Below, in pieces: positions 9,066 through 16,585 of a DNA stretch of 64,000 bases. Each line of letters starts with the position of its first letter. Position 1 is the first letter of the stretch. This DNA is from Litchfieldia alkalitelluris (lineage in GTDB: Bacteria; Bacillota; Bacilli; Bacillales; Salisediminibacteriaceae). A program made the translations under genes and the position numbers. Location: contig NZ_KZ119600.1 of NCBI RefSeq assembly GCF_002153425.1, positions 748,418-812,417 of the forward strand. The letters run 5' to 3'. A model generated the notes under the pieces. It was not told the origin of the DNA, ran no database searches, and was given only the letters and a program-made list of their open reading frames with translations.

Positions 9066-9890
9066 GTGCCCGGAGCGGAGTTCTTATTTGTGTTTCGGGC
9101 ACTAATGAGTTGTGATAGTGCCCGGAGCGGAGGTCTCGATGTGGTTTCGGGCACTAATGAGTTGTGATAGTGCCCGGAGCGGAGGTCTCGATGTGGCTTC
9201 GGGCACTAATGAGTTGTGATAGTGCCCGGAGCGGAGGTCTTATTTGTGTTTCGGGCACTAATGAGCATTGATAGTGCCCGGAGTGCAGGTCTCGATGTGG
9301 TTTCGGGCACTAATGAGCTGTGATAGTGCCCGGAGCGGAGGTCCCATATGTGTTTCGGGCACTAATGAGCTGAGATAGTGCCCGGAGCGTAGTTCTTATT
9401 TGTGTTTCGGGCACTAATGAGTAGAGATAGTGCCCGGAGCGGAGGTCTCAAAGTGGTTTCGGGCACTAATGAGCTGTGATAGTGCCCGGAGCGCGGGTCT
9501 CAAAGTGGTTTCGGGCACTAATGAGCTGAGATAGTGCCCGGAGCGAAGGTCCCATATGTGTTTCGGGCACTAATGAGTAGTGATAGTGCCCGAAGCGGAG
9601 GTCCCATATGTGTTTCGGGCACTAATGAGCTGAGATAGTGCCCGGAGCGAAGGTCCCATCAATGTTTCGGGCACTAATGAGTTGTGATAGTGCCCGGAGC
9701 GCGGGTCTCGATGTGGTTTCGGGCACTAATGAGTAGAGATAGTGCCCGGAGCGGAGGTCTCAAAGTGGTTTCGGGCACTAATGAGCATTGATAGTGCCCG
9801 GAGCGAAGGTCCCATCAATGTTTCGGGCACTAATGAGCAGAGATAGTGCCCGGAGCGCACAACCCATAAGGTTTTCAGGCACTATCAAGC
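9066..9890. repeat. 52-bp tandem hairpin array (16 units)
   Basis: gtgcccg recurs exactly every 52 bp from 9066 to 9846. Each unit has the arms gtgcccg and cgggcac around a variable 23-nt loop (gagcggaggtc...tttt), followed by a taatgag...gat linker. Several loop variants are shuffled along the array, which fits unequal exchange. It fills the gap between the secreted-protein gene and the histidine kinase gene. No open frame is supported here. Confidence 0.93.
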
Positions 9891-15949: not shown

Positions 15950-16276
15950 TTATTCGAATACCATATTGTATATTTTCGCAATATCCTCCTTGAATTTCTC
16001 TATATGAACGATCCTTGCTTCCCTCAATGCTTCTTTTCCATCTACATATAAAACAATGACTGGCACTGTGAATGCCATCAGTTCACCTGCAATTTGTGGA
16101 ACTTTATCTAAATCAACTAATCTTGCCTCGAGCTTTGGGAATGCTTGTAGAACTTCCTCAACCTGAGGAAGGAGACCATGACAAACGCTTCACCTCTCAG
16201 CAAATACGTATATGAGAGCCATATCATTTTGGTTCTTAAGTTGTTCTACTTCATCAATTGAGATGATTTCTTTCAT
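15950..16276 (-). CDS. Thioredoxin-fold protein with in-frame TGA at the first active-site Cys (candidate selenoprotein, UxxC)
   Basis: A 109-codon frame starts at an ATG with a GGGAGG site 11 nt upstream and reads MKEIISIDEVEQ...YVFAER, TGA (16192-16190), SVCHGLLPQVEE...FTVPVIVLYVDGKE...NMVFE, stop. Codons after the TGA stay in frame for 79 residues, with the thioredoxin cis-Pro (VPV) and the VDGKE turn. From family memory, relatives have Cys at the TGA position (CxVC), so reading TGA as selenocysteine gives U29-S-V-C32. A SECIS-like hairpin follows. The main alternative is a recent nonsense pseudogene. Whether the genome carries selA, selB, selC and selD cannot be seen here. Confidence 0.7.
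16153..16171 (-). promoter_or_regulatory. SECIS-like stem-loop downstream of the in-frame TGA
   Basis: On the minus strand an 8-bp perfect stem, cttcctca and tgaggaag, closes a GGU loop that begins 26 nt after the TGA. Published bacterial SECIS rules ask for a stem of at least 4 bp, a small apical loop with G in its first two positions, and 16-37 nt from the UGA to the loop; all are met. The same bases also encode LPQVEE, a plausible family motif, so chance remains possible. Confidence 0.5.
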
Positions 16277-16399
16277 GATTTTATTTTCCTCCCTGTCCTT
16301 GTCTATGTATTAGTATTATCATAAATGATTCTTATTTTAACTCAAAATTATTGGTGATTTACCCTAAATTAATTATTTAGGTTGGTATGGATTGGACTA

Positions 16400-16585
16400 G
16401 CAGATCTGGCCCTGATCTGGTATGAGAATCAAAGAAATGCATTTTTCATACCAGATCTCGCCCTGATCTGGTATGAGAATGTAGAATTAGAAGATCTCAT
16501 ACCTAATCTCGCCTAGATCAGGTATGAGAATGTAATTTTTGAAGATCGCATACCTGATCCCGCACTGATGACCTGGTATGGAATT
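16400..16585. repeat. 51-bp hairpin repeat array (four units)
   Basis: tatgagaa recurs at 16421, 16472 and 16523 (pitch 51 bp), with a degenerate fourth unit near 16577. The units form hairpins such as cataccagatc...gatctggtatg, with stems up to 11 bp around a 7-nt loop. The rest of the gap to 16810 contains nothing recognisable besides the next gene's leader. Confidence 0.85.

Follow-up and report, generated by a model that had tools for sequence, protein, structure and literature searches.

A thioredoxin-like gene with an in-frame UGA is predicted to encode a selenoprotein of a conserved Bacillales lineage

The gene at 15950..16276 (minus strand) of the window, i.e. the whole 64-kb stretch of DNA analysed here, very probably encodes a thioredoxin-like selenoprotein of 108 residues in which TGA at codon 29 is read as selenocysteine (Sec). 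We put the probability of this reading at about 0.96. It is drawn from four lines of evidence: the UGA stands at the active site, a conserved hairpin follows it, the host genome holds the Sec machinery, and the UGA is kept across related genera. The original prediction of a selenoprotein is thus supported, by the machinery of the host and by the TGA and hairpin of the relatives.

The frame counts 109 codons including its TAA stop, and runs on the minus strand from the ATG at 16276-16274 to the TAA at 15952-15950 with a single internal TGA (16190..16192), in the context AER-TGA-SVC. Alignment with Cys homologues places this codon at the first residue of a UxxC motif, the presumed resolving cysteine of which, Cys32, is the TGT codon at 16181..16183. 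GGGAGG, 11 nt before the ATG (16288..16293, minus strand), is likely the ribosome-binding site, and 79 sense codons lie 3' of the TGA. The interrupted frame and the 79 intact codons had both been predicted, with no strand given, and minus-strand translation bears them out; a plus-strand reading of 15950-16276 was rejected because it meets several stops in the same frame. The nearest flanking genes on both sides are long open frames (310, 435, 368 and 343 aa). Twelve frames of the 64-kb window are broken by one TGA only, with 28 codons or more on its 5' side and 78 or more on its 3' side. Only that of 15950-16276 has a SECIS-like hairpin, defined by a stem of at least 7 bp (G-T allowed) and a loop of 3-6 bases with G at base 1 or 2, at 16-37 nt after the TGA.

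Upstream of the gene, positions 16403-16563 hold a tandem array (51-bp unit, 3.2 copies, 79% match). The inverted repeat AGGTATGAGA / TCTCATACCT is found in its units. Part of the array scored as terminator-like. A conserved partner gene beside the window copy was considered and rejected, as the immediate neighbours have no relatives near other copies. Two neighbours some 3-4 kb from the gene do have such relatives, at 6 and 5 loci, the window included.

Written with C in place of U, the protein passes the PF00085 gathering score (34.2 vs 23.5 bits). It misses the TIGR01068 thioredoxin equivalog cut-off (35.4 vs 96.8 bits), and a search of NCBIfam models returned none above cut-off. TrxA proper has an active site of the WCGPC type; this is absent from the window protein, which reads RUSVC. 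The nearest solved sequence is 4euy (E 1.4e-12). The AlphaFold model, also with C for U and built from 24 rows (the window plus 23 of 45 named loci described below), is a thioredoxin fold with a pLDDT of 94.7. Residue 29 lies in it just before helix 30-43, the active site thus preceding helix 2 as in thioredoxins. Foldseek ranks thioredoxins and thioredoxin-like designs highest, at a TM of about 0.85.

The machinery of the Sec trait is given in PMC9312934 as SelA, SelB, SelD and tRNA-Sec. All four are found in the host genome (4.88 Mb, 6 contigs, 100% complete): selA at 527 bits (cut-off 268), selB at 389 (242), selD at 419.5 (125) and a tRNA-Sec that scores 55.1 bits against an Rfam cut-off of 47, with anticodon TCA according to ARAGORN. 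The search for these genes had been proposed with the original prediction, their absence being named as what would undo it. Among 14 well-known genomes used as controls, tRNA-Sec is above cut-off in 5, selB in 2 and selA in 1; the cut-off matters here, as every one of the 14 has weaker tRNA-Sec and selB matches. The window copy is far from the host selB.

Two further host genes carry an in-frame TGA: selD itself (SSKAG-U-GCKIGPSD) and the adjoining gene for a SelW-like Rdx protein (CQQU). These are established Sec sites. The two genes are divergent, the SelW-like CxxU gene at L018:9989-10222 (minus) and selD at L018:10334-11395 (plus). Some 30-35 nt after its TGA selD has a 6-bp hairpin with a GUG loop, and in the SelW-like gene a hairpin CTGCGA-GTT-TCGCAG can be read by eye, the minimum-energy fold being different. 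A Sec formate dehydrogenase was rejected as the reason for the machinery, since the three FdhA-like frames of the host have no in-frame stop. The tRNA-Sec (L019, about 9330-9422) lies directly beside a frame at L019:9545-10828 (minus) that by eye resembles a tyrosine-recombinase-like integrase of 427 aa, which suggests that a mobile element inserted there.

Of 397 genomes of the order searched at the protein level, 168 have a match with an E-value of 1e-14 or lower. Among the matches listed, those of 16 genomes have one TGA: the host, 11 genomes of one family, at 56-63% identity, and four others. By translation and alignment, codon 29 is TGA in the 16 UGA genes vs TGC or TGT in 44 other loci, 7 of which were hand-picked; these 44 non-TGA loci form the Cys set used below. 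The closest homologues found, whose codon 29 was to be checked according to the original prediction, therefore have TGA in an open frame and not TGC/TGT. Cys32 is kept in 15 of the 16. In one UGA homologue (L075, G343) the second active-site Cys is replaced by Gly (USVG) and the hairpin is kept; its product is possibly a monoselenol redoxin.

We also scanned named genomes with a DNA pattern, TGA-x-V-C-H-x-L-L-P-Q-V-E-E/D, in which synonymous sites were left free. This gave 45 TGA loci, overlapping the set of 16 genomes. As the pattern fixes V, C, H, L, L, P, Q, V and E, the invariance of these residues, Cys32 among them, is by construction, and within the 45 loci only the synonymous positions are a test. 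The loci are titled Mesobacillus, Cytobacillus, Neobacillus, Planococcus, Planomicrobium, Sediminibacillus, Alteribacillus, Salirhabdus, Sporosarcina, Paenibacillus (one) and Bacillus spp., plus two titled Pseudomonas and Chryseobacterium. These two (L091, Pseudomonas sp. ISL-84; L103, Chryseobacterium sp. ISL-80) carry Cytobacillus/Mesobacillus-type genes, so their titles are likely wrong. From the TGA to the next stop there are 77-84 codons in 42 of the 45 loci. The frame ends early in L089 (69 codons) and L104 (63 codons); in L098 the available sequence stops before the frame does, and L125, at a contig edge, has no proper start. One analysis of the 45 loci left out 5, for a contig edge or a shortened or differently started frame.

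In a search reaching beyond the order, 24 of 398 genomes of the phylum matched at E 1e-12, with TGA only in the host and in G117, both of the same order. Viral contigs gave 0 matches to the TGA pattern and viral carriage was rejected. Plasmid carriage was rejected as well, on identity and annotation: 16 plasmid records have relatives, all below 60% identity, and among the 15 listed 13 are annotated as thioredoxin family protein and 2 are unannotated.

These comparisons bear on a pseudogene or a sequencing error, in which a Cys codon TGT/TGC would have mutated, or been misread, to TGA. A one-base change is enough for this, given the TGC/TGT of the Cys homologues at codon 29, and the host family offers no other UGA copy: among its 35 genomes searched the UGA form is found in the host only, the 20 other matches (E 1e-8) being without TGA. 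Yet TGA stands at codon 29 in 15 genomes of the order besides the host and in the 45 named loci, and the host has the Sec machinery. The divergence from the 11 close UGA homologues is moreover biased to third positions: 212/109/466 differences at codon positions 1/2/3 over 825 codons downstream of the TGA, and 105/57/221 over 308 codons upstream. The downstream bias argues that the part reached by read-through is under protein-level selection. With the near-frozen hairpin codons described below, this makes a pseudogene or error very unlikely for the window copy, and practically excludes it for the UGA family as a whole.

The predicted bSECIS, CTTCCTCA-GGT-TGAGGAAG (16153..16171, minus strand), is a stem of 8 bp closed by a 3-nt GGU loop, 26 nt from TGA to loop, exactly as predicted. 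It corresponds to the bSECIS as it is outlined in PMC4607533, a stem-loop that follows the UGA closely and whose loop holds a conserved G. At two mismatches or fewer this hairpin has no other match in the 64 kb, and none of 100 shuffles has one. Folding of the 54-nt stretch alone gives weak evidence, and its energy, unexceptional at a z of -1.55 with 14 of 200 shuffles as good, is a point against the Sec reading. Single-sequence folding energy was therefore rejected as proof, and the strength of the case comes from comparison.

The 16 and 45 UGA rows (61) leave 51 after removal of identical stretches. In these 51 distinct genes the L-P-Q-V-E codons are CTT in 47, CCT in 49, CAG in 51, GTT in 39 and GAG in 51. 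The Cys homologues that have the same residue use CTT in 2/20, CCT in 11/31, CAG in 17/35, GTT in 4/18 and GAG in 5/17. In the rest of these UGA genes, codon use for those amino acids is mixed (e.g. GAA 298, GAG 127). Isolated biased third positions also occur outside the stem, as in the Asn codons 26 positions after the UGA, 39 of 41 of which end in T, and it is the consecutive run of near-frozen ones that coincides with the stem. All seven outer pairs are formed in 41/51 UGA genes vs 0/44 Cys genes. When synonymous codons of the window motif are resampled 20000 times, these seven pairs arise in 358 draws and all 8 bp of the stem in 104. Fisher tests, on codons as on selA, take related genes as independent and their p-values are indicative only. 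The overlap of the hairpin with an LPQVEE motif, which had been held against it, is real; the synonymous positions of LPQVE are nevertheless near-frozen in the UGA form only. Thus the hairpin looks selected as an RNA element.

Some observations weigh against this. The innermost A-U pair, present in 39/51 UGA genes, is lost in 12/51, and some UGA genes are also without certain outer pairs. The hairpin is conserved in sequence, with almost no compensatory changes; the test is limited in this respect, as most positions of the stem are set by the protein motif.

A TGA read as another amino acid, by Trp-like suppression or as a recoded stop, would give a non-Sec product. Any stop can leak at a low level and the frame is open after this one, but such read-through leaves no role for a hairpin at SECIS distance or for selA in 16/16 UGA genomes, and the homologous residue is Cys; we regard it as extremely unlikely. 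A functional product of just the 28 codons that precede the TGA, with the remainder dead, is just as hard to credit: this piece would be translated without selenium, but the part 3' of the TGA is conserved, and the core of the fold lies there together with Cys32 and the cis-Pro region.

The Sec reading is further set in the context of the order. The original prediction had called Sec use uncommon in Bacillaceae. This did not hold: 181 of the 397 genomes searched in the order have selA, which makes Sec use common and, by this count, the Sec trait widespread. A 2006 survey (PMC1794560) gives three selenoproteins for Bacillales. selA is present in 16/16 genomes with the UGA form vs 60/152 with another homologue, the latter including the weakest, unlisted, of the 168 matches, vs 105/229 without homologue; this association takes the 397 genomes of the homologue and selA searches as the same draw. 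The selA genomes without a thioredoxin-like homologue at E 1e-14 thus number 105. Downstream of the UGA gene and on the opposite strand, 10 of the 45 named loci have a selB-like frame or piece, these frames being grouped by similarity. The motif GHIDHGK is seen in the called pieces of 4 of these 10, and the one frame tested, that of L115, passes the selB model (368.5 vs a cut-off of 242.25 bits).

A tree of 95 rows places 50 of the 51 UGA rows together (support 92/94, not starred). The remaining one, L125 (Neobacillus citreus) from a contig edge, lies outside this group, and because of this placement the tree needs two Cys/Sec changes; a single change for the UGA form is possible. The window copy groups with Mesobacillus-type rows (83/75, weak), and the Cys homologues of the host's own family branch outside its group. 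As the host alone has the UGA form among the 35 genomes of its family searched, the window copy may have come by transfer, and its horizontal arrival is plausible.

We infer that the UGA copy is used in this host. SelB would deliver Sec-tRNA(UCA) while bound to the hairpin, and Sec would be inserted at the UGA. By analogy with thioredoxin-fold chemistry, the U29 selenolate would attack a disulfide, sulfenic acid or peroxide substrate and C32 would resolve the selenenylsulfide. Recycling would fall to a cellular thiol reductant, thioredoxin reductase and bacillithiol being candidates. Without selenium, translation would end after residue 28.

Standard translation cuts this widespread selenoprotein gene at the same point, and the three selenoproteins of the 2006 survey compare with selA in nearly half of the genomes of the order. 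Since related bacteria have Sec and Cys forms, what a thioredoxin-like protein gains from Sec is directly testable, and the conserved hairpin is a natural candidate SelB-binding element for study.

The gene belongs to a well-conserved Bacillales lineage of the known UxxC thioredoxin-like kind, a kind correctly named in the original prediction. A full-text literature search, covering titles and abstract openings, gave no description of a Bacillales USVC lineage. We tentatively propose, at a little under even odds, an undescribed subfamily in which Sec was fixed early in a Bacillales lineage and also spread by transfer. This subfamily, along with SelW and SelD, would keep the Sec trait for thiol redox work, with no need of a Sec formate dehydrogenase (on the FdhA-like frames of the host genome alone), and L075 would be a monoselenol redoxin branch.

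Among known systems, thioredoxin (pfam00085, UxxC) is listed as an experimentally verified selenoprotein in PMC9312934, and 'Trx-like 1' (COG0526) as a UxxC selenoprotein in PMC2398784. The window protein shares with the UxxC thioredoxin-like selenoproteins a thioredoxin-type domain with Sec at the first Cys of CxxC. Its Bacillales lineage and USVC site set it apart from those in the lists, by description rather than by alignment. The Cys-form 'thioredoxin family protein' of Bacilli, with the solved relative 4euy, is of the same family at about 30-55% identity, but has Cys at the Sec position and, in the 44 loci compared, no such hairpin. With the SelW-like (Rdx) CxxU protein and SelD of the host the window protein has the decoding machinery in common, whereas these belong to other families and have other Sec motifs.
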